This document shows positions 37,620 to 50,311 of a stretch of 57,908 nucleotides of DNA, in pieces (position 1 is the stretch's first letter; every line of letters starts with the position of its first letter). Origin of the DNA: Mariprofundaceae bacterium (lineage in GTDB: Bacteria > Pseudomonadota > Zetaproteobacteria > Mariprofundales > Mariprofundaceae); the NCBI GenBank assembly GCA_015488115.1, contig WFOK01000069.1, forward strand, positions 1 to 57,908, in the 5' to 3' direction. The notes below the pieces were generated by a model, which was given only the letters and a program-made list of their open reading frames with translations, did no database searches and was not told where the DNA came from. The position numbers were made by a program, and so were the translations under genes.

Positions 37620-37804
37620 GCTTTATCCAGAGCGGTGGAGGGTTCAGGCCCTGAGAAGCCGCGGCAACCGGCCGATAATCGGCGTCCGGTGCCAATGCCT
37701 GCCTCCGGGGCTTCCGGGGGAGCGATGATGCGCGGGTTGGTGGTCATGGGTGCGCGCGGCGCGCCATGGATGCTCAACCTTCGCTGTTTCGCGAAGGTTT
37801 TTTT
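37620..37804 (+). promoter_or_regulatory. SAM-I (S-box) riboswitch with intrinsic terminator
   Basis: The aptamer (37620-37731) has the S-box core in order: AGAGCGGTGGAGGG, GGCCCTGAGAAGCC, GCGGCAACC and GGTGCCAATGCC. P1 pairs GCTTTATC (37620-37627) with GATGATGC (37724-37731), with one wobble and one mismatch. The expression platform is a perfect nine-pair terminator, AACCTTCGC with GCGAAGGTT (37776-37799), ending in a run of T. An alternative pairing of GGGTTG (37734-37739) with CAACCT (37775-37780) would be the antiterminator. In the known mechanism, SAM binding stabilises P1 and lets the terminator form, so the operon is off when SAM is plentiful. This points to methionine supply as the regulated output. 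Confidence 0.93.
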
Positions 37805-37843: not shown

Positions 37844-39097
37844 ATGAGCATTGTCCGTGCCCTGAAATGTCGCGAATGCGGTCAGGAATATGCCATCGAG
37901 CCGAACCATGTGTGCGAGTTTTGTTTTGGCCCCCTGGAAATCGTCTATGATTATGATCAGCTGGAGGGGGTGTTTACCCGCGAGCTCGTTGAGTCCCGGC
38001 CGCACACGATGTGGCGTTACAAGGAACTGTTGCCTCTTGATGGCGATCCGACGGTGGGCGTCCAGAACGGTTTTACGCCATTGATTCGCGCCCGTAACCT
38101 GGAGAAGGTCCTCGGGGTTTCGGAGCTTTACATCAAGAACGACTCGGTTTGTCATCCGACGCTGTCCTTCAAGGATCGCGTGGTTTCAGTTGCGCTTTCC
38201 AAGGCGGTCGAATTTGGATTCAAGACCGTGGCCTGTGCGTCTACCGGCAATCTTGCCGGATCCGTAGCGGCCAATGCAGCAGCAGCTGGGCTTGAATCCT
38301 ATGTCTTCATTCCTCATGATCTCGAGCAGGGCAAGGTGCTTGGCGCGGGCATCTTTGGCACCAGCATCGTCGGCATCGATGGAGCCTATGATGATGTGAA
38401 CCGGCTGTGTTCGGAAGTGGCCGGAAAATACGGCTGGGCCTTTGTGAATGTCAACGTGCGGCCGTTCTATGCCGAGGGCTCGAAGACTTACGGTTACGAA
38501 ATCATGGAACAGCTTGGCTGGCGTGCGCCGAAGCACGTCGTTGTCCCCATGGCCTCCGGCTCGCTGTGCACGAAGATTGACAAGGCCATCAAGGAATTCA
38601 TCAGGCTGGGGCTTGTCGAGGATCAGGAAACGGCCATTTATGGCGCGCAGGCCACGGGCTGCTCGCCGATCTCCCAAGCGGTCAAGCAGGGATCGGATCT
38701 GATCAAGCCGGTTCAGGCGGATACGATTGCCAAGTCGTTGGCCATTGGCAATCCCGCCGATGGTTACTATGCCAGCAGGGTGATTCGTGATTCAGGTGGC
38801 TGGGCGGAAGACGTCAGTGATGAAGAGGTGGTCGATGCCATCAAGCTGCTGGCGGAGACGGAAGGCATCTTTACAGAGACGGCCGGCGGCGTCACGCTAG
38901 GGGTGACCAGGAAGCTCATTGAACAGGGTCGCATTCCTCGCGATGAGTCGATTGTCGTCTGCATCACGGGCAATGGACTGAAGACCCAGGAGGCTGTTGC
39001 AGATGCCATTGCAAGGCCCAGGGTGATCAGGCCATCCATCCATGATTTCGATGCAATGATGGCAGAAGAGCGGCCGGCGGCTGCGGCTGATGCCTGA
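37844..39097 (+). CDS. Threonine synthase-like PLP enzyme heading the SAM-controlled sulfur operon
   Basis: A 417-residue fold-type II PLP enzyme of the threonine synthase family. Residues 9-27 form a small zinc ribbon (CRECG and CEFC). The PLP lysine is Lys110 in HPTLSFKDRVV, and the phosphate loop is STGNLAGSVAANAA. By family it should act on O-phosphohomoserine. It is the first gene after a SAM-I riboswitch and is followed by a CysO-type carrier and a NIL protein. A role in homocysteine synthesis, swapping water for carrier-bound sulfur, is therefore plausible but unproven. Ordinary threonine synthase, or a cysteate synthase-like activity, are alternatives. ATG 37844 has a GAAGGAAC site. 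Confidence 0.82.
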   Translation: MSIVRALKCRECGQEYAIEPNHVCEFCFGPLEIVYDYDQLEGVFTRELVESRPHTMWRYKELLPLDGDPTVGVQNGFTPLIRARNLEKVLGVSELYIKNDSVCHPTLSFKDRVVSVALSKAVEFGFKTVACASTGNLAGSVAANAAAAGLESYVFIPHDLEQGKVLGAGIFGTSIVGIDGAYDDVNRLCSEVAGKYGWAFVNVNVRPFYAEGSKTYGYEIMEQLGWRAPKHVVVPMASGSLCTKIDKAIKEFIRLGLVEDQETAIYGAQATGCSPISQAVKQGSDLIKPVQADTIAKSLAIGNPADGYYASRVIRDSGGWAEDVSDEEVVDAIKLLAETEGIFTETAGGVTLGVTRKLIEQGRIPRDESIVVCITGNGLKTQEAVADAIARPRVIRPSIHDFDAMMAEERPAAAADA

Positions 39098-39130: not shown

Positions 39131-39409
39131 ATGAGCGTTACAGTCCGAATCCCGACGCCTTTGCGCAAGCTCACTGGAGGAGCTGATGAGGTTCAGGTCG
39201 AGGCCGCGACGATTGCGGAAATGATTGACCAGTTGGAGGCCGCTCATGCCGGGCTCAAGGCGCGTCTGTGCGACGAGAACGGAGAAATCCGGCGTTTCGT
39301 CAATGTGTATGTCAACGATGAGGACGTCCGTTTCCTGGACGGGAGCGAGACCAAACTCAAGGATGGCGATGAGGTTTCCATCGTTCCGGCCATTGCAGGC
39401 GGGAGCTGA
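39131..39409 (+). CDS. CysO/ThiS/MoaD-type ubiquitin-fold sulfur carrier
   Basis: A 92-residue beta-grasp protein. It resembles mycobacterial CysO in several stretches, notably RRFVNVYVNDEDVRFLDG (residues 54-71) and the end VSIVPAIAGGS. Carriers of this family are adenylated and thiocarboxylated at a C-terminal Gly-Gly. Here Gly90-Gly91 is followed by Ser92, so one residue would have to be removed before activation, as with carriers that need a Mec/HcyD-type metalloprotease. None is encoded in the operon. The adjacent MoeB/ThiF gene supplies the activating enzyme and the adjacent PLP enzymes the likely sulfur acceptors. Confidence 0.9.
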   Translation: MSVTVRIPTPLRKLTGGADEVQVEAATIAEMIDQLEAAHAGLKARLCDENGEIRRFVNVYVNDEDVRFLDGSETKLKDGDEVSIVPAIAGGS

Positions 39410-39456: not shown

Positions 39457-39696
39457 ATGAAGCTGCGGGTTTATTTGACTTTTCATGAGGATACCGTGCG
39501 CCAGCCGATCATCTGGAAGCTGGGCAAGGAGTTTGATGTCGTGACCAATATCCGAACCGCCGAGGTCAAGGATCACATGGGGCTGGTCGGGCTGGAGCTG
39601 GACGGCGATGATGACGTGATCGAGGCCGCTATTGACTGGCTCAAGGCCCAGGGCGTGCATGTCGATCCCATCGAGCAGAACATCATCGAGGGCTGA
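39457..39696 (+). CDS. Stand-alone NIL domain protein
   Basis: A 79-residue single-domain protein (start [20 protein letters not shown], then [20 protein letters not shown] and [17 protein letters not shown]). This is the NIL fold, named from the NIL tripeptide seen in some members. The domain occurs at the end of the methionine importer ATPase MetN, where it binds methionine, and fused to ferredoxins used for homocysteine synthesis in methanogens. Here it stands alone in a SAM-controlled operon, so a methionine or homocysteine-related role is likely. AAGGAGG precedes the ATG. Confidence 0.82.
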
Positions 39697-39728: not shown

Positions 39729-40661
39729 ATGGCGATCTATGACAACATCTCCGAGGCCATTGGCGATACACCCCTCGTGCGTCTGCACCATGTTGTGCAA
39801 GGATGCAGGGCGGAGGTGCTGGCCAAGCTCGAGTTCTTCAATCCGCTGAATTCAGTCAAGGATCGGATCGGCCGGGCCATGATTGAAGCCGCAGAGCGTG
39901 ATGGGCGGCTCAAGCCAGGGGGCATTATTGTCGAGCCGACCAGCGGCAATACGGGCATCGCGCTGGCTTTCGTCGCCCGCGCCAAGGGCTATCGCTGCAT
40001 CCTGACGATGCCCGAGTCGATGAGCCTCGAACGCCGGAAGCTTCTCAGGCTGTTGGGCGCCGAGCTGGTGTTGACGCCTGCGGAGTTGGGCATGAAAGGA
40101 GCCATTGCCAAGGCGGGCGAGATCCTGGCCCAGGAGGACAATGCATTCATGCCCCAGCAGTTCGAGAATCCGGCCAATCCCGAGGTTCACCGGAAAACGA
40201 CGGCGGAGGAGATCTGGCAGGATACGGAAGGTCGGGTTGATGGCATTGTCGCCGGCGTGGGCACCGGGGGAACGATCACGGGTGTCGCGGAGGTCATCAA
40301 GTCGCGAAATCCGGATTTCATCGCCATTGCTGTCGAACCGGCCGATTCTCCCGTGATTTCAGGAGGTCAGCCGGGCCCGCACAAGATTCAGGGCATTGGC
40401 GCGGGCTTCATCCCCAAGAACTTGAATGTCGATATTCTGGACGGAGTCGAGCAGATCACCAATGAAGAGGCCTTCACGATGGCCCGGCGCCTGGCGGACG
40501 AGGAAGGCATCCCGGGTGGGATCTCGTCCGGTGCCGCCGTGACAGCCGCAATCCGCGTGGCCAGCCGGGATGGCATGGAAGGCAAACGGATTGTCGTCAT
40601 CGTGCCATCGATGGCCGAGCGGTATCTGTCGACGGATCTGTTCAAGGGCATTGATGTCTGA
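39729..40661 (+). CDS. cysK: Cysteine synthase (O-acetylserine sulfhydrylase A type)
   Basis: A 310-residue fold-type II PLP enzyme. The PLP lysine is Lys44 in [11 protein letters not shown]. The substrate loop [19 protein letters not shown], the [11 protein letters not shown] phosphate cup and the [12 protein letters not shown] segment are those of CysK rather than CysM. It should make cysteine from O-acetylserine and sulfide. In mycobacteria a related enzyme (CysM) takes sulfur from CysO thiocarboxylate and uses phosphoserine; the neighbour carrier makes this a possibility here, but the sequence is CysK-like. AAGGAG lies just upstream of the ATG. Confidence 0.93.
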
Positions 40662-40710: not shown

Positions 40711-41532
<822 letters not shown>

Positions 41533-41572
41533 GTTGGTCAGGGTCCGGAATCTTGCATGGGAGAAACTGAAG

Positions 41573-43933
41573 ATGCCGCGTTTTGAATTTGTAGCCTCAT
41601 CGGATATCGAGGAGTTTGAGCGGGGGTGGCGGGCGTTCCGTGAAGGGCGCATGAGCGAGGAGCGCTTTACCCCATTCCGCCTTCAGATGGGCATCTACGG
41701 GCAGCGCCAGGAAGGCGTGCAGATGGTGCGCGTCAAGCTGCCGGGGGGGCGGCTTTCCCCAGATCAGCTTGAGGTTATCGCTGACTGTGTCGAACAGTTC
41801 TCCGGACGCCTGCCAAGTGACGGGAGTCTGAAGGAGGCTCCGCCGAAACTGGCGCATGTGACCACGAGACAGGATATCCAGATGCATTTTGTCGCCCTGG
41901 ATGATGTTCCTGCCGTTTTGCGGCGCCTGGCTTCGGCCGGGCTGACGACGCGCGAGGCTTGCGGCAATACGGTCCGCAATGTAACCGCCTGTTTTCTTGC
42001 CGGTCGTTGCCCTGCCGAGCATGCGGACGTTTCCGTGCATGCGCGGGCGTTTGCTCAGGCCTTCCTGCGTCACCCGCTCACGCAGCAGTTTCCGCGCAAG
42101 TTCAAGGTCAACTTTTCCGGTTGCGTGACGGATTGCGGCCTTTCCGGCATGCATGACATCGGCTTCATCGCCCGCAAGAAGGACGGACGAAGGGGCTTTC
42201 AGGTATGGGCCGCTGGCGGCCTGTCGACCCAACCAATGGGGGCGATCCTGATCGAGGATTTCATCGAAGAGCACGAGATCTTCGTCGTGGGTGAGGCCCT
42301 GATGCGCATGCACTTCAAGTATTCGGACCGCAAGCGGCGGGCCCGCGCCAGGCTGAAATACGTGGCCCAGAAGCTTGGCAAAGACGGCTTTGTCGAGGAA
42401 TACCGGCGCCAGCGCGCGGCCATAGAGGCCATTCATCGCAATGACAGGCCGGTATCCGATGCCGGATGGCGAGAGCCGGATGGTGCGATGCCCTGGTCCG
42501 AGGATGGTGTTGTCCGACAGCATGATGGTCGCTTGGCCATCCTGCTCAACCTTTTCCGCGGAGACCTGACGCCCGAGCAATGCCGGGCCATAGCGACCAT
42601 TGCCAGGGATGCGGGAACCAGGACACTCATGGTGACGGCCGAGCAGGGGCTTGTGATTGCCGACATCGAACCGAAAGAGCGGGATAGGGTTCTCGGCCAG
42701 TTGCATCAGGCGGGGCTGACGACCCGCTACGCACGCGGGATTGCGGATATCGTGGCCTGTCCAGGAACCGAAACCTGCCGGCTTGGCATCACCTCAAGTC
42801 GAGGATTAGCCGAGGCGATGAAATCGGTCGTGGATGCATTGAAGACGGATCCCGCGTTGGCCGGGCTCACGGTCAAGGCGTCCGGTTGCCAGCACTCATG
42901 CGGCCGACACCATATCGCGGACCTTGGCTTTCATGGCTTGGCGAAGAAGATCGGAGGGAGGGCGGTTCCGCACTATCAGCTTCACGTGGGCGGTTCAGGT
43001 CACGCAGGCGAGCCGTTTGCCTTTGCCACCGACCCTGTTCCCGCCAAGCGGGCGCCCGAGGCCGGAGCGGTCATTCTCAAGGCCTATCAGGAAGGCCGCC
43101 ACGAGGGTGAGAGCATGCATGACTGGGCAGCCAGGATCGGTCGCGATGCAATCAATGCGTTGCTGGCCCCCTTTGCCGGCGAGCCAGGGGAGGTTGAGGG
43201 GCTTATTTACGACTGGAACGAGAACGAGGCCTTTTCCACCAAGGGCAACAAGAAGGGCGAATGCGCCGGGGCTGTGCTGTCGATGACCGATGCACTGGTC
43301 TGCGAGGCCGAGTATGAATGGATGCTGGCCCGTGCCCATGCCGATGCGATGTTTTGGGGTGAGGCCCATGCATCGCTGAAGCGGGCCTCGGTATCGCTGG
43401 CCAGGGCCTTTCTGGTTCCTTTCGGAGAGGCGCCGGAAAAAGACGAGGATGTCTGGCCGCTTTTGTTTTCGCATGCATCCTCGGATGCAGAATTGCTGCG
43501 CGGGCTCACGGTCGTGCAGGGAGCCTTGATGGCTGTTGATCTGCAAGATCCGGCTCCCGGCATCACGCGGCTGAAGCAGGCGATTGGGGACTGGCTGCAA
43601 CTGGCCAAGACACGCTTTGCTTCCGTGCCCGCATCATCCAGTGACGATGCTGCCAGCAGTCAGGCCCAGGCTGTTCCGGGGCAGACTGCGTCGAGCGATG
43701 AAGTGCCCGTGCTCGACCTGAGTGGCGTGGCCTGTCCGATGAATTTCGTGAAGACGAAAATCAGATTGACCGCCATGCCGATCGGCAGTCTGCTGGATGT
43801 CATTCTGGACGATGGGGCGCCCATCGAGAATGTGCCGCTGTCGCTTGAGGAGCAGGGCCAGGAGGTTCTCTCCAAGCAGCCATATGGCGATGGGCAGTGG
43901 AAGATTCGCATCCGGAAGACTTCGGACCTTTGA
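41573..43933 (+). CDS. Ferredoxin-type nitrite/sulfite reductase fused to a C-terminal TusA domain
   Basis: A 786-residue fusion. Residues ~30-480 are a duplicated siroheme/[4Fe-4S] reductase. The second half has the usual cluster set, C396-x5-C402 and C439-x3-C443. The first half also has one, C140-x5-C146 and C184-x3-C188, where most relatives have lost it. Residues ~565-680 are helical and I do not recognise them. A Ser/Ala linker leads to a TusA domain (~712-786) with the sulfur-carrying cysteine in VACPMNFVKTK (Cys721). Sulfide or sulfane sulfur formed by the reductase could pass straight to the TusA end. No flavoprotein subunit (CysJ) is present, so electrons probably come from ferredoxin. 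ATG 41573 chosen. Confidence 0.88.
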   Translation: MPRFEFVASSDIEEFERGWRAFREGRMSEERFTPFRLQMGIYGQRQEGVQMVRVKLPGGRLSPDQLEVIADCVEQFSGRLPSDGSLKEAPPKLAHVTTRQDIQMHFVALDDVPAVLRRLASAGLTTREACGNTVRNVTACFLAGRCPAEHADVSVHARAFAQAFLRHPLTQQFPRKFKVNFSGCVTDCGLSGMHDIGFIARKKDGRRGFQVWAAGGLSTQPMGAILIEDFIEEHEIFVVGEALMRMHFKYSDRKRRARARLKYVAQKLGKDGFVEEYRRQRAAIEAIHRNDRPVSDAGWREPDGAMPWSEDGVVRQHDGRLAILLNLFRGDLTPEQCRAIATIARDAGTRTLMVTAEQGLVIADIEPKERDRVLGQLHQAGLTTRYARGIADIVACPGTETCRLGITSSRGLAEAMKSVVDALKTDPALAGLTVKASGCQHSCGRHHIADLGFHGLAKKIGGRAVPHYQLHVGGSGHAGEPFAFATDPVPAKRAPEAGAVILKAYQEGRHEGESMHDWAARIGRDAINALLAPFAGEPGEVEGLIYDWNENEAFSTKGNKKGECAGAVLSMTDALVCEAEYEWMLARAHADAMFWGEAHASLKRASVSLARAFLVPFGEAPEKDEDVWPLLFSHASSDAELLRGLTVVQGALMAVDLQDPAPGITRLKQAIGDWLQLAKTRFASVPASSSDDAASSQAQAVPGQTASSDEVPVLDLSGVACPMNFVKTKIRLTAMPIGSLLDVILDDGAPIENVPLSLEEQGQEVLSKQPYGDGQWKIRIRKTSDL

Positions 43934-43957: not shown

Positions 43958-46597
43958 ATGAGCGAGGATAGGCATCCGTTTGCCAATCCCGGCAGAACGA
44001 AGCTTGCGCTGGTCAGCCGCGGCGTCGCCCTGCCGGATGGCTTGCCCGAGTCTTCCCGGTGGGTTTCGCAGGCCAATGCGGCGGAAACGGTTATCGACCT
44101 GCGTTTGCCCTCAGGACATTTCTGTACGGTGCCCGTCGGACAGCGCTACACCGAGAAAAGCCCGATCAGTCTAAGGGTCAGGCCGGGCACAAGCGAAGGC
44201 ATGCTCGAATGGGAAGGAGAACATCTGCCGGTACAATTGCTGCCGGCGCCCACATTCTACAGCAAGCGGACACGCTCGGGTGCCCGCATGGGCAGCTTCG
44301 CGGCGCTGCATGAACGACTGCTGATTTTGCATCCGTTTCTGGGATGCGGCTTTTTTGCCCGCAAGGGCGAGGCCTGCCAGTACTGCCTGTATGATTCCAT
44401 GCTCAATGACGAGGAGCCCCCGATGAGGGATCCGCTCGAGCTGGTCGAGGTCGTTCAGGCTGCCATGGCCGAGCGTGAAATCGATACCGTATATCTGTAC
44501 AACGGTTTTTCACCGGAGCCAGATGCCGGCTTGAGGCGGCTGGTATCGGTTATCGCGTTGCTCAGGCGCCATTTGGGGCATCGCCAGATCGCGCTTGAGA
44601 CCGTAGCTCCACGGCAGCTCTCGGTTCTGGACGACCTTTATGCTGCCGGGCTGGACATCTTCATATGCAATCTCGAGGTGTTTGATTCGCGGCGTTTTGC
44701 CGAGCTTTGTCCCGGAAAGGAAAAGCACGGCGGTCAGGACGCGGTCTGGGCCGCCCTCAGTCATGCCAGAACCGTATTCCGGCCGGGCTCGGTTGTCAGT
44801 CATCTGATTGTGGGCCTGGAGGATCCTGAGTCCACGAAGAAGGGCATGGAGGCACTGGTCGCTCAAGGCGTGGTGCCCCTTCTGGTGCCGTTCCGACCGC
44901 TCCCGGGAACCCCGCTCGCCGAACACCCGCCGGTTCCCCTGGAGCTGTTGGAGCAGACCTTTCTGCATCTCTACGGTCTTCTTGCCTCTTCGCCGTTTCC
45001 CATGCACAGGCTCAGGCACATGGGCAGGGTGTTAACGCCCATGGAAAGCCGCGTGCTCGATGGCTCCCAGGCCAGCCTCGCCGACATGTGGGCGCTTTCT
45101 CCTCTGGGACAGAAACTGGGCGGCTGGGTCAGTGCACTGCGCCGCCAGCTTCGGGCTCCGTTGAATCGGGATACGGTGCAGGCCACGGGCATGGACAGGC
45201 GCCCGATGCTTGTCCTGCTGGCGGAAAACGGGGCCCCCTTTGCAGCACTTGCTTTCCTATTCGGCGCAGCCTTTGCGCTGCTCCAGATTGATGTCCCCGC
45301 GGACCTGCGCTCAGAGGCCTGGAGCACCCTCGTCGTTTTTGGATTATGCCTCGTGCTTTGGATCACCCAATTGCTTCCTCTGTCGATCACATCGCTGCTG
45401 GGCATGGCGGCATTGCCGCTTGTCGGCGCCATGGAAGCCTCGGAGGTGTTTTCCCTGTTTGGCAACCCGGCTGTCTTCTTCATTCTCGGTTCCTTCATGC
45501 TGGCTGCCGGCTTGATGCAGACGGGTGCCTCGGAGCACTTGGCACTGAAGTTTATCGAGCATTTTGGTCGCGGCAGCCGCTCGCTTCTGGCGGCCGTGCT
45601 TCTGCTGCCAGCTTGCATGGCCATGACCATGCCGGAGCATGCCGTTGCAGCCGTTTTTTTGCCCATTGTCTGGCAGATCGTGCGCAGTCTCGGTCTGCGT
45701 GCCCGTCATCCATATGCCCAGGCGCTTTTTCTCTCGATGGCCTGGGGCGCGATTATCGGTGGAGTCACGACACTGCTGGGTGGTGCGCGTGGCCCCCTGG
45801 CTCTTGCACTGGTCGAGGAGATCAGCGGTCATGGCTTTTCATTCATGGACTGGACCCTGGCGGCACTGCCGATTGTGCTGCCGATGCTGCTGGTTGCATT
45901 GCTGGTCCAGCAGCGGTTGGCGCCCATGGATCGCGTGCACATTGAAGAAGCGCATGAATACCTTGCTCAACGAAGGCTGGAGATGGGGTCGATGCCGCTG
46001 CGCGCGCGGTTGATGCTGTTGCTCATGGCCGGAACCCTGCTGGCATGGATCAGCGCTGGTCATGTCATGGGGCTGGCCAGCATTGCACTCGTCAGTGTGG
46101 TTCTGATGTTTGTCCTGCGTCTGGTGGAATGGAAAGAGCTTGAGTCCTCGGTCAACTGGGGTGTTGTTCTGATGTATGGGGGAGCCATTGCGTTGGGAAA
46201 GGCCTTGAGTGATACGGGAGCGGCTTCCTGGTTGGCAGCCCAGCTTTTTCCCGCGGAGGGGCTAGGCGGTTTGGCACTCATGCTTCTTATCGGCCTTGTG
46301 ACGCTGCTGCTGACTGAGAGCGTGAGCAATGCCGCAGCTGTGGCCATTCTGTTGCCTATTGCGTTGCCTGTGGCCGATGCTGCAGGCATGGACCCTGTCC
46401 CGACGGCCATGGCCGTCGGGATCGTGTCCGGTTTCGCCTTCATGTTACCCATGGGAACGCCGCCGAATGCGATGGTCATTGGCACGGGCTGTGTCTCGGC
46501 GGGCATGATGTTTCGGGTGGGCCTTGTGCTTTCCATGGCTGCCATGGCGTTTTATGCCTTGTCCGTTGCCTGGATCTGGCCGATGTTGGGGATTTGA
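43958..46597 (+). CDS. Radical SAM domain fused to SLC13/DASS-type anion permease
   Basis: An 879-residue continuous reading frame with two unrelated parts. Residues ~1-400 form a radical SAM protein: cluster cysteines C130-x9-C140-x2-C143 (GCGFFARKGEACQYC), then VYLYNGFSPEPDAGLRRL, IALETVAPRQ and a late HLIVGLEDP. Residues ~415-879 are an SLC13/DASS permease with about a dozen helices, containing TESVSNAAAVAILLP and the family-specific MLPMGTPPNAMVIGTG. DASS proteins carry sulfate or dicarboxylates with sodium; within this operon sulfate is the natural guess. The C-x9-C-x2-C spacing is seen in Elp3 and YhcC-type enzymes. I know of no established fusion of these two families. The substrate of the radical SAM part is unknown. 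Confidence 0.88.
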   Translation: MSEDRHPFANPGRTKLALVSRGVALPDGLPESSRWVSQANAAETVIDLRLPSGHFCTVPVGQRYTEKSPISLRVRPGTSEGMLEWEGEHLPVQLLPAPTFYSKRTRSGARMGSFAALHERLLILHPFLGCGFFARKGEACQYCLYDSMLNDEEPPMRDPLELVEVVQAAMAEREIDTVYLYNGFSPEPDAGLRRLVSVIALLRRHLGHRQIALETVAPRQLSVLDDLYAAGLDIFICNLEVFDSRRFAELCPGKEKHGGQDAVWAALSHARTVFRPGSVVSHLIVGLEDPESTKKGMEALVAQGVVPLLVPFRPLPGTPLAEHPPVPLELLEQTFLHLYGLLASSPFPMHRLRHMGRVLTPMESRVLDGSQASLADMWALSPLGQKLGGWVSALRRQLRAPLNRDTVQATGMDRRPMLVLLAENGAPFAALAFLFGAAFALLQIDVPADLRSEAWSTLVVFGLCLVLWITQLLPLSITSLLGMAALPLVGAMEASEVFSLFGNPAVFFILGSFMLAAGLMQTGASEHLALKFIEHFGRGSRSLLAAVLLLPACMAMTMPEHAVAAVFLPIVWQIVRSLGLRARHPYAQALFLSMAWGAIIGGVTTLLGGARGPLALALVEEISGHGFSFMDWTLAALPIVLPMLLVALLVQQRLAPMDRVHIEEAHEYLAQRRLEMGSMPLRARLMLLLMAGTLLAWISAGHVMGLASIALVSVVLMFVLRLVEWKELESSVNWGVVLMYGGAIALGKALSDTGAASWLAAQLFPAEGLGGLALMLLIGLVTLLLTESVSNAAAVAILLPIALPVADAAGMDPVPTAMAVGIVSGFAFMLPMGTPPNAMVIGTGCVSAGMMFRVGLVLSMAAMAFYALSVAWIWPMLGI

Positions 46598-46617
46598 GTG
46601 TTTTGGGAGTACAAAAC

Positions 46618-47343
46618 GTGGATGAGCTGATCAAGGAAACATTGTCGATTCTGCGCATGGCCTGGGCCAAGCATGGGGATGGCCTGGTCTATCCATGCAG
46701 TTTCGGCGGCGAGAGCTCGGTTCTGCTGGATCTGATCCATCAGGCGGAGCTTCCCATTCCGGTGCTCACCCTGGATACGGGGCGCCTTCCCCAGGCGACC
46801 TATGACTTCATTGACGAGGTCAGGGCGTTCTACGGCCTGAATGTCCAGGTCGTGTTTCCGGATTGCCGCGAGGTCGAGAAGATGGTCCGGGAGCATGGCG
46901 TGAATCTGTTCCGGCAGTCGCCTGAAATGCGGCGTCTGTGTTGCGAGATTCGCAAGGTGCATCCGCTCAAGAGGGTGCTTGCAGGTAGATCGGCCTGGAT
47001 TACCGGCAGGCGACGGGAACAGTCTCCGGACAGGAAGAGCATCCAAGCCGAGGAGCATGATGCGGTTTATGGACTGACCAAATACAATCCCCTGCTGAAC
47101 TGGACTTGGGATCAGGTCAGGGCCTACATTAGTCAGCGCAAGATTCCATACAATCGGCTTATTGACCAGCATTACGTTTCCATCGGTTGCGAATGCTGTA
47201 CGCGCCCGATTACGGTGGGTGAGGATCCCCGTGCCGGCCGCTGGTGGTGGGAGTCGGAAGAGGCTGCTGCGGAGTGCGGTCTGCACATGGATCCCCTGCG
47301 CGGATATGTGGGTGGAGAAGGATTGGAAGGGGAGGGGATCTGA
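46618..47343 (+). CDS. cysH: Phosphoadenylyl/adenylyl-sulfate reductase, APS-type (CysH)
   Basis: A ~241-residue reductase. The PP-loop is SFGGESSVLLDL (28-39). Cys-Cys at 108-109 (RRLCCEIRK) and C191-x2-C194 (CECC) bind a [4Fe-4S] cluster, which marks the APS-using type rather than the PAPS type. The catalytic cysteine is in ECGLH (Cys220). It reduces activated sulfate to sulfite with thioredoxin. I chose the GTG at 46618, which has GGGAG at good spacing; a TTG at 46594 overlapping the previous stop is possible. No CysC is present, consistent with APS as substrate. The stop overlaps the next gene's ATG. Confidence 0.92.
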   Translation: MDELIKETLSILRMAWAKHGDGLVYPCSFGGESSVLLDLIHQAELPIPVLTLDTGRLPQATYDFIDEVRAFYGLNVQVVFPDCREVEKMVREHGVNLFRQSPEMRRLCCEIRKVHPLKRVLAGRSAWITGRRREQSPDRKSIQAEEHDAVYGLTKYNPLLNWTWDQVRAYISQRKIPYNRLIDQHYVSIGCECCTRPITVGEDPRAGRWWWESEEAAAECGLHMDPLRGYVGGEGLEGEGI

Positions 47344-47831
47344 TGAAGACAGAGACCATGCACGAAAAGTTGTCGATCGTGTGTTTCAGCGGCGACTATG
47401 ACAAATTGCTGGCAGCATTCACGATGGCCACGGGCGCGGCGGCGACCAACCGGCAGGTAACCATGTTCTTTACTTTCTGGGGGCTCAATGCCTTGAAGAG
47501 AAAACATGGGCGAAGCGCGCTGGGGCGCACGCCGTTGGCCAGGTTGTTCAACTGGCTCATGGGCGGCCTGAGCAATCTTCCGCTCTCCCGGCTCAATTTC
47601 GCCGGATTGAGTCCGAGACTGATGGAGGGCATGATGCGCAAGAACAATGTGGCTACGCTACAGGAGTTGATGCAGGCGGCCCGCGAACTTGGGGTCCGCA
47701 TGGTCGCCTGTGAAATGGCCATGCACATTCTGGAGCTTGAGCGCGGCGATCTCATGGATGGGGTTGAGGATATCGTCGGCGTGGCCACGTTTTTGAACGA
47801 ATCCCGTGATGCCCACATCATTTTCATCTAG
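47343..47831 (+). CDS. DsrE2-like (DsrE/DsrF/DrsH family) sulfur-relay protein
   Basis: A 162-residue protein of the DsrE2 group. It has a nucleotide-like N-terminal strand (SIVCFSGDYDKLLAAFTMA), a hydrophobic middle region (VTMFFTFWGLNAL) and the conserved active-site cysteine in VRMVACEMAMHILELERGDL. It ends GVATFLNESRDAHIIFI, a family end. DsrE2 proteins are usually found with TusA and rhodanese in sulfur-oxidising bacteria, where they bind sulfane sulfur. Here the gene sits between cysH and a TusA gene, inside an assimilatory operon. The ATG shares three bases with the cysH stop. Confidence 0.88.
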   Translation: MKTETMHEKLSIVCFSGDYDKLLAAFTMATGAAATNRQVTMFFTFWGLNALKRKHGRSALGRTPLARLFNWLMGGLSNLPLSRLNFAGLSPRLMEGMMRKNNVATLQELMQAARELGVRMVACEMAMHILELERGDLMDGVEDIVGVATFLNESRDAHIIFI

Positions 47832-47842
47832 ACTTCGCTTCC

Positions 47843-48064
47843 ATGAAACACTTTTTGGACATCACGCGTGAGACCTGCCCGATGACCTTCGTCAAGGTCA
47901 AGCTTGCCCTGTCCCGCATGGAGAAGGGTGAGGAGCTCGAGGTCATTCTGAATGAAGGCGAGCCTTTGCAGAATGTTCCCCGTTCCTGCGAGGAACAAGG
48001 CTATACGGTGATTTCGGTGGAGCCATGCGGCGGGGGACGCCATCGGGTCTGGATCCGGAAATAA
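47843..48064 (+). CDS. TusA-like sulfurtransferase
   Basis: A 73-residue TusA-family protein. The carrier cysteine is Cys12 in ETCPMTFVKVKLALSRM; the fold ends with YTVISVEPCGGGRHRVWIRK. The CPM-FVK form differs from the CPxP motif of classical E. coli TusA and is shared with the TusA domain fused to the sulfite reductase in this operon (CPMNFVKTK). The two probably have the same ancestor and related partners. It starts eleven bases after the DsrE2 stop. Confidence 0.9.
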   Translation: MKHFLDITRETCPMTFVKVKLALSRMEKGEELEVILNEGEPLQNVPRSCEEQGYTVISVEPCGGGRHRVWIRK

Positions 48065-48090
48065 AGCAATAGCAAACAGGGGACATGAAG

Positions 48091-48999
48091 ATGAGCAAGC
48101 GAAAACTGACGCAGTTGCAGGCCTTGGAGGCGGAATCGATTCACATCATCCGCGAGGTTGTCGGCACCTTTCGCAATCCGGTCATGCTGTACTCCATCGG
48201 CAAGGACTCCAGCGTGATGCTCCATCTTGCGCGCAAGGCCTTTTACCCGGCGCCGCTGCCTTTTCCCCTGCTTCATGTGGATACGGGATACAAGTTTCCG
48301 GAAATGTACGAATTCCGGGACTGGTTTGCCAAGGAGATCGGTGCTGAACTGATCGTGCACAGGAATGAGAAGGCCATTGCCCAGGGCATGAACCCGCAAG
48401 AGTACGGCGTTGCCCGTTGTTGTGGTGCCCTGAAGACCCAGGCGCTGCTGGATGCCCTGGAGGAAGGCGGTTATGACGCCGCTTTCGGCGGTGCACGTCG
48501 GGATGAGGAGCGCAGTCGAGCGAAGGAGCGCGTCTTTTCCATCCGGGATGAATTTGGCCAGTGGGATCCCAAGAATCAGCGCCCCGAGTTGTGGAACATC
48601 TATAACGGTCAGATTCACGAAGGCGAATCGGTGCGTGTTTTCCCCCTTTCCAACTGGACGGAAATGGACATATGGCTGTACATCCGTCAGGAGAACATTC
48701 CGATCGTTCCCTTGTATTATGCGAAGGAGCGGTGGGTGATCGAGCGTGGCTCGATGCTCATCCCCTTCTATGAGGGTATGGAGGATCAGCTCAGGGAAGG
48801 CGAAAAGCCCACGAAGGTCATGTGTCGTTTCCGGACCCTTGGCTGCATTCCGTGTACCGGGGCTGTGCGCTCGAGCGCCACGACCCTTGATGAAATCGTG
48901 GCCGAGGCCGCTGCTGCCCGGCGAAGCGAACGTGAGACCAGACTGATCGATCACGGTTCGAACACGATGGAAGACAAGAAAAAGGAAGGCTACTTCTGA
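48091..48999 (+). CDS. cysD: Sulfate adenylyltransferase subunit 2
   Basis: The ~302-residue ATP pyrophosphatase subunit of ATP sulfurylase, which makes APS from sulfate and ATP. The PP-loop is [18 protein letters not shown], and the conserved [15 protein letters not shown] and [19 protein letters not shown] are present. Length matches E. coli CysD. I took the second of two near ATGs (48091) because the AGGGGA site is seven bases away from it but only one from the first (48085). CysN follows 40 bases later. Confidence 0.95.
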
Positions 49000-49039: not shown

Positions 49040-50311
49040 ATGACTGAGATTGACTGGAAACTGAGCCAGGATATTCAACTGTTGCGCCTGGTGACCGTGG
49101 GAAGCGTGGATGATGGCAAGTCCACACTGATTGGCCGCCTTCTGGTGGATACCAAGGGGGCCTTCGAGGATCAGCTGCTTTCGGTGCGTCGCAAGCGCGG
49201 GCCGGCCAAGGAGTCCGAAATTGATCTGGCGATGCTGACCGACGGTCTGGCCGCCGAGCGGGAGCAGGGCATCACGATCGATGTCGCCTATCGCTACTTT
49301 GCGACCCCCAAGAGGAAGTTCATCATGGCCGATTGTCCCGGTCACGAGCAATACACGAGGAATATGGTGACCGGGGCTTCCACGGCCAATGCAGCCATCA
49401 TCCTTGTGGATGCCCGCAATGGCGTCATGCCGCAGACCAAGCGCCATTCGCATATTCTTTCCCTGCTTCAGATTCCGCATCTGATTGTGGCGATCAACAA
49501 GATGGATCTGGTGGATTACAGCGAGGAGGTGTTCAAGGGCATCCGCGACGAGCTCGGTGCTTTTTGCGCCAAGCAGGGCGTGCATGACCTGATCACGATC
49601 CCGATTTCGGCCCTGAAGGGAGACATGGTCACGGTCCGTGGTGATAACATGAACTGGTATGATGGCCCCACCCTGCTCGAGGTGCTTGAATCCCTCGAGG
49701 TTACGGATCACATCGACGAAAAGCCGTTCCGCTTTCCCGTCCAGCTCGTGAACCGTCCGCAGACGCCAGACCTTCCCGATTATCGCGGTTACATGGGGCA
49801 GATTGTGTCCGGCACGATCCGGCCCGGCGAGGAGGTCATCGCCCTGCCATCCATGCAGCGCTCCACGGTTCGGGAAATCGTGACCTACGATGGTAACTTG
49901 GAAGAGGCATTTGCGCCCCAGAGCATCACGCTGACCTTGAACGATGAAATCGATATCTCCCGGGGTGACATGATTGTCAAGCCGGATCAGATGCCGAAAA
50001 AGGAGCGGGAGTTTTCAGCCAATGTCTGCTGGATCGGGGATGAGCCGTTGTCGGTGCGGAAGAAGTACTGGATCAAGCAGACCTCGAATCTCGGCAAGGT
50101 CATGGTCAGTGGCATCGAATTCAAGACGGATATCCATACGCTTGATCGGGTCTCGACAAGCGAGCTTGCCATGAATGAGATCGGCCGCGTGTCGTTCAAG
50201 CTGCAGAAGCCAATGTTTTTCGACAGCTACGCGGAGAACAGGGCTACCGGGAGCTTCATCCTGATTGATACCTTTTCATACAATACCGTCGGCGCAGGCA
50301 TGATCGTCTAG
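49040..50311 (+). CDS. cysN: Sulfate adenylyltransferase subunit 1 (GTPase)
   Basis: A 423-residue EF-Tu-like GTPase that drives sulfate activation with CysD. The P-loop is GSVDDGKSTLIGRLL (about 21-35); G3 is DCPGHEQY and G4 is NKMD. Length matches stand-alone CysN, without the APS kinase (CysC) extension. It is the last gene of the operon and ends 26 bases from the convergent hemW; I see no clear terminator in between. Confidence 0.95.
   Translation: MTEIDWKLSQDIQLLRLVTVGSVDDGKSTLIGRLLVDTKGAFEDQLLSVRRKRGPAKESEIDLAMLTDGLAAEREQGITIDVAYRYFATPKRKFIMADCPGHEQYTRNMVTGASTANAAIILVDARNGVMPQTKRHSHILSLLQIPHLIVAINKMDLVDYSEEVFKGIRDELGAFCAKQGVHDLITIPISALKGDMVTVRGDNMNWYDGPTLLEVLESLEVTDHIDEKPFRFPVQLVNRPQTPDLPDYRGYMGQIVSGTIRPGEEVIALPSMQRSTVREIVTYDGNLEEAFAPQSITLTLNDEIDISRGDMIVKPDQMPKKEREFSANVCWIGDEPLSVRKKYWIKQTSNLGKVMVSGIEFKTDIHTLDRVSTSELAMNEIGRVSFKLQKPMFFDSYAENRATGSFILIDTFSYNTVGAGMIV

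Follow-up and report, generated by a model that had tools for sequence, protein, structure and literature searches.

The gene at 43,958–46,597 of the window (the whole stretch of 57,908 nucleotides analysed here; all features described lie on its forward strand) raises the question of why a radical SAM (rSAM) domain should be joined to a permease, and what such a protein does among genes of sulfur assimilation. To our knowledge radical SAM enzymes are not known as parts of transporters, and our literature search found no described rSAM-transporter fusion. The open frame begins with an ATG at 43,958, ends with the stop codon closing at 46,597 and encodes 879 aa without an internal stop, and the first-pass annotation of one frame joining a radical SAM domain to a complete SLC13-like transporter is upheld by profile matches over cut-off to both parts and by recurrence in relatives. 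The rSAM domain (about residues 1-400; 43,958–45,157), delimited by its profile match, invariant columns and predicted fold, scores 172.8 bits (cut-off 125) against the NCBIfam variant_rSAM family NF045502 over residues 58-325; PF04055 gives 26.0 bits in a whole-protein scan, under its cut-off of 29.5, and 30.3 bits, above it, in a genome search. A linker (about residues 401-416; 45,158–45,205) is recognised by alignment, low conservation (mean identity of 33% across residues 401-436) and predicted disorder at residues 402-410, where pLDDT is below 50. The DASS/SLC13 permease half (residues 416-879; 45,203–46,594) matches TIGR00785 (266.8 bits, cut-off 198.6, residues 446-874) and PF00939 (207.6 bits, cut-off 27, residues 438-878), with a corresponding fold match, and we have very little doubt about the identity and architecture of the protein as an rSAM domain joined to a DASS permease. 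The frame is present as a single copy in its genome, which also encodes a second DASS protein without an rSAM part (on contig 15) and two SulP proteins, so that the fusion need not be the sole point of sulfate entry.

When 84,980 named species genomes were scanned with two exact peptide patterns, which could miss distant relatives, 66 loci were returned, all in Zetaproteobacteria or in unclassified Proteobacteria MAGs falling among them; the isolates with the locus are Mariprofundus ferrooxydans PV-1, M. micogutta, M. erugo, Mariprofundus KV and EBB-1. Full-length relatives with 57-92% aa identity are spread through the order to which the source genome belongs, its own genus and family included, the fused state is found in three families of the order (f1, f2 and f3), and a single fused frame is present in 56 of the 63 loci in named public genomes that hold both halves. 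It is hardly credible that the fused frame arose as a sequencing or assembly error: two MAG loci (L110 and L097) do have a stop or frameshift within the gene, but 56 of 63 independent assemblies, isolate genomes included, carry the frame intact, and this count together with the 57-92% identity across the order excludes a missed stop, a frameshift at the junction or a chimeric contig.

Two adjacent open reading frames replace the single frame in at least seven genomes (six of the 63 loci, and G015), and one further locus of the 63 has a stop inside the rSAM half. Where split-form junctions were read closely, the two frames overlap by 1 or 4 bases (in L063 and L066) or lie 2 bases apart; in G015 the gap is longer. 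In a maximum-likelihood tree the split rows are explained by two changes and, since the gene is also fused in the sister families f2 and f3, the fusion is probably ancient and the split state derived later. The halves thus remain neighbours where they are separate, the outcome expected by the Rosetta-stone reasoning of the first-pass annotation, and separate, unlinked halves were sought and not found within the order. The survey of relatives covered Pseudomonadota genomes and plasmids. Outside the order, the 399 Pseudomonadota genomes yielded only rSAM relatives at 25-35% identity, and the plasmid search only rSAM matches at about 26-30%; a permease relative without an rSAM part does exist outside the order. 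A weak rSAM match was also seen in plasmid records, 369 of them from Klebsiella and 30 from Escherichia.

The position of the gene between sulfite reductase and cysH, noted at the outset, proves to be within a sulfate-assimilation operon. To the left of the fusion there are a thrC-like PLP enzyme gene (37,844–39,097; TIGR00260 over cut-off), a MoaD/ThiS/CysO-like sulfur carrier gene (39,131–39,409) whose product we take to resemble CysO, a small NIL-domain-like ORF (39,457–39,696; assigned by eye), a cysteine synthase-like gene (cysM; 39,729–40,661), a MoeB/ThiF adenylyltransferase gene (40,714–41,532; PF00899 and NF004281 over cut-off), and a NirA-type sulfite reductase gene fused to tusA (41,570–43,933; PF01077, PF03460 and PF01206), the start codon of which is uncertain. 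To its right, cysH (46,594–47,343; NF002537 over cut-off) shares 4 bases with the fusion gene and is followed by a dsrE2-like gene (47,343–47,831; PF13686), a free-standing tusA-like gene (47,843–48,064; assigned from its sequence, a tblastn match to the TusA part and its same place in relatives), cysD (48,085–48,999) and cysN (49,040–50,311). The names of cysD, cysN, cysM, moaD and the NIL-like ORF come from reading of the sequence, by eye for cysD and cysN, together with synteny. Neighbouring genes of the window operon are separated by -4 to 52 bp. The carrier ends in AGGS, one residue beyond Gly-Gly, and a trimming protease would be needed; none is seen in the operon. The C-terminal TusA domain of the sulfite reductase, which is also present in locus L069, suggests that reduced sulfur passes directly to a carrier.

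This arrangement is widely shared. As far as the contigs reach, the genes run thrC, moaD, cysM, moeB, SiR-TusA, rSAM-DASS, (cysH), (dsrE2, tusA), cysD and cysN; the NIL-like ORF between moaD and cysM was seen in the window operon. The fusion gene is invariably flanked by sulfite reductase-TusA on one side and by cysH or cysDN on the other, with the rSAM gene always directly 3' of sulfite reductase-TusA, and cysDN is present wherever the contig extends far enough. Eight loci (L121, L123, L128, L109, L108, L142, L102 and L126) have the operon without cysH and cysH elsewhere in the genome, and with two genomes that have an operon copy, cysH is encoded in 10/10 genomes tested; M. ferrooxydans PV-1 (L119) has two copies. 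The operons without cysH had suggested cleavage of organosulfonate C-S bonds to sulfite, an idea weakened by these counts.

The operon is headed by a SAM-I riboswitch aptamer (37,620–37,731; RF00162, 78.8 bits against a gathering score of 44.4), with an intrinsic-terminator-like hairpin and T run 3' of it (37,776–37,804; hairpin 37,776–37,799), and the two sit directly upstream of thrC. A SAM-I riboswitch occupies the same place in 7/7 loci, these being the window and 6/6 others tested. The proposal that SAM acts here at the level of RNA therefore stands, and from the riboswitch class we infer that the operon is SAM-repressible.

The permease half has a predicted fold matching those of NaCT, VcINDY and NaS1, with a target-normalised TM of about 0.8-0.88 for the best matches, and its motifs comprise E560-H561 at the first site, GGAR (608-611), SNA (790-792) and GTPPNA (833-838). 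With VcINDY, NaCT and the human sulfate transporter NaS1 it has in common the family score, the predicted fold, S-N-A and GTPPNA; it differs in having the rSAM domain and in its first site, where alignment shows that Ser-Asn-Thr is replaced by Pro-Glu-His in all members (the second motif is S-N-A/T/S) and that the following loop is GGARGP in place of GTPPN/GSPPN. Because it lacks the pair of Ser-Asn-Thr motifs, we file it as a variant DASS subtype. Among 16 DASS sequences compared, GGAR is present in 8/8 with E-H and in 0/8 with S-N-T. In classic DASS proteins the two Ser-Asn-Thr motifs also build two Na+ sites, and in the LaINDY exchanger an Arg-Glu pair (Glu146/Arg159) occupies the Na1 site (PMC7553777). 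By analogy, E560 and R611 may fill the first cation site of the fusion; LaINDY-type exchangers have a charged pair in place of the first Na+ site, and E560/H561 with R611 could be its counterpart, although the charged residues are at different sequence positions in the two proteins.

As to cargo, characterised DASS proteins of bacteria include sulfate transporters (PMC5840216), and the best evidence that sulfate is carried here comes from G041 (locus L069), a member of another Pseudomonadota family, in which an E-H/GGAR DASS protein with 38% identity to the fusion's lies in a sulfate operon with no rSAM gene. That operon (L069:845-7718) contains moeB (partial in the locus), cysH, SiR-TusA, sat, the DASS gene and a lipoate-protein ligase-like gene. 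A second group of E-H/GGAR DASS proteins (L191, L192, L196, L198, L200 and L203), with the motifs GEHTVAA and GGARNAIMIGY, has no sulfate genes nearby. We consider it probable that the permease half carries a sulfate-type cargo. Of the two imports first suggested, sulfate is thus the likely one, and an organosulfur compound is less likely given cysDN in the operon and cysH in all of the genomes tested for it.

The rSAM half contains the cluster motif C130-x9-C140-x2-C143, with x9-x2 spacing in place of the canonical x3-x2, and an accessory N-terminal region (residues 1-95). The three cysteines had been named correctly by the first-pass annotation; along with C237, N238/E240 and C251 they never vary in 36 aligned rSAM domains, and most columns of the R353-E363 stretch are likewise invariant. 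N238/E240 are putative SAM-binding residues, placed where BioB-type enzymes bind SAM. An AF2 model of this half (pLDDT 85.4, pTM 0.85) has a TIM-barrel-like fold whose best PDB matches are HydE, LipA, PylB, ThiH and BioB (E 1e-10 to 1e-7), with HydE and LipA the nearest, and enzymes of these nearest folds act on small molecules or bound peptides, or insert sulfur; searching PDB sequences with the profile of this half gave no significant match. The last 50 residues of the domain reach a pLDDT of 57-69 in the full-length model, compared with 43-54 alone, and this small difference, in a model with a pTM of 0.57, gives a weak hint that the rSAM C-terminus contacts the permease.

The rSAM half belongs to variant_rSAM, a group that has been little characterised, and its predicted fold is of the HydE/LipA/BioB kind. 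The variant_rSAM match takes in part of the accessory N-terminal region, but the other members found here stand alone, at 360-390 aa, whereas the fusion's domain carries a permease, and the fusion is distinguished from the group by C-x9-C-x2-C and the additional invariant C237 and C251. Outside the class, the domain has sequence relatives in the MSMEG_0568 proteins (25-28% identity) and in one protein of G084 (30% identity), and neither kind is near sulfate genes. MSMEG_0568 rSAM proteins (TIGR04043, of the Nit1C cluster) have a homologous domain, but the fusion, at 95.5 bits, stays under their cut-off of 303.7, and they have C-x8-C-x2-C with a Cys-rich C-terminal tail where the fusion has C-x9-C-x2-C. 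In the one locus with ORFs listed, an MSMEG_0568 relative adjoins a nitrilase-like gene with no sulfate genes beside it; this Nit1C neighbourhood (nitrilase etc.) is absent around the fusion, which has sulfate-assimilation genes at all loci. Locus L075 (6539-7621) encodes a stand-alone 360-aa rSAM protein with 30% identity to the fusion's domain and the motif CGFSCQYC (C-x3-C-x2-C); it falls slightly under the variant_rSAM cut-off, and no sulfur genes are evident among its neighbours.

Purifying selection on each half is strong, as judged from sequence comparison: dN/dS is 0.02-0.09 for the rSAM half and 0.04-0.15 for the DASS half, and the rSAM half is the better conserved in 28/28 comparisons (67.5 vs 60.2%). 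The fusion is a single conserved and selected protein in which an rSAM domain of cytosolic type, its cluster residues and putative SAM-binding residues intact, is joined to a complete DASS permease. SulP permeases can carry STAS or carbonic anhydrase domains and are likewise anion transporters with a cytosolic domain, but their transporter fold and their added domains are unrelated to those of the fusion. The rSAM-permease architecture is apparently new, although its component parts are known.

We propose that the permease half imports sulfate or a similar oxyanion to feed the operon's CysDN-CysH-sulfite reductase route, a step for which there is good support, and that the rSAM domain could be held at the membrane's inner face, where its SAM-bound [4Fe-4S] state, or an rSAM reaction on the permease half or on a small pathway metabolite, might set uptake activity. 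SAM would then act twice, on synthesis through the riboswitch and on the finished transporter. The protein would most likely be a sulfate permease bearing a membrane-tethered rSAM domain, putatively able to catalyse a reaction, by which uptake is controlled or modified. That the two halves are functionally coupled is somewhat favoured, SAM- or redox-dependent control of uptake is conceivable and rather doubtful, and the specific mechanism of gating or covalent modification of the permease by its own SAM-loaded [4Fe-4S] domain, with iron or oxygen state sensed at the same cluster, is more doubtful still. The poorly conserved linker and the separate halves in some genomes indicate that physical linkage is not essential everywhere.

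Catalysis by the rSAM half is as compatible with the evidence as sensing or control. Such an enzyme, working in the way of others with the HydE/BioB/LipA fold, could act on a small pathway molecule or on a compound delivered by the permease, with fusion positioning it at the transporter exit or at the membrane; the catalytic-type residues are all invariant, C237 and C251 could be a hydrogen-atom donor, a sulfur acceptor or ligands, the closest folds are those of small-molecule and sulfur-inserting enzymes, and purifying selection on the rSAM half is as strong as that on the permease or stronger. Sulfate itself, however, is not a plausible rSAM substrate, the known steps from sulfate to cysteine are already in the operon, the neighbourhood offers no candidate substrate, and sulfonate C-S cleavage is unneeded given cysDN in the operon and cysH in all 10 genomes tested; we hold a catalytic module to be less likely than not. 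A lipoyl or biotin synthase-like biosynthetic role unrelated to sulfate is very improbable. The lipoyl and biotin synthases are among the closest folds, there is a weak similarity to LipS2, and a lipoate-protein ligase-like gene adjoins the DASS relative in G041, but the LipS2 score of 21.3 bits is far under the cut-off of 270, the operon contains no lipoate or biotin genes, and a full LipA (396.6 bits, cut-off 310) is encoded elsewhere in the same genome, on which ground we reject lipoyl synthase as the identity of the rSAM half.

The fusion could also be an operonic accident without coupling, in which the stop between overlapping genes was lost and the rSAM enzyme, merely tied to the membrane, acts elsewhere in the pathway, its targets being sulfite reductase or the TusA/DsrE2/MoaD carriers. 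In favour are the split-form junctions of a few bases, the flexible and poorly conserved linker, and the constant place of the rSAM gene immediately after sulfite reductase-TusA. Against this, the fused state has been retained in three families with only two changes on the tree needed for the split forms, fusion imposes a 1:1 stoichiometry and a membrane location on the enzyme, and prediction of the rSAM C-terminus improves when the DASS half is included; we regard an uncoupled fusion as improbable. A sulfate permease under rSAM-linked control, in a SAM-riboswitch operon, is the best explanation overall, though a tentative one, and control is placed slightly ahead of catalysis because the partner is a transporter, SAM is the end product of the pathway and no missing chemical step is evident.

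The fusion is near-universal in the Zetaproteobacteria examined, which are marine iron oxidisers, it is strongly selected and present in cultivated strains, and every other gene of the operon has a readable place in sulfur assimilation; together these make the function of the variant_rSAM group testable. The fusion is a possible case of nutrient import under end-product control by an iron-sulfur/SAM domain, through which the cell may link sulfate uptake to SAM chemistry.
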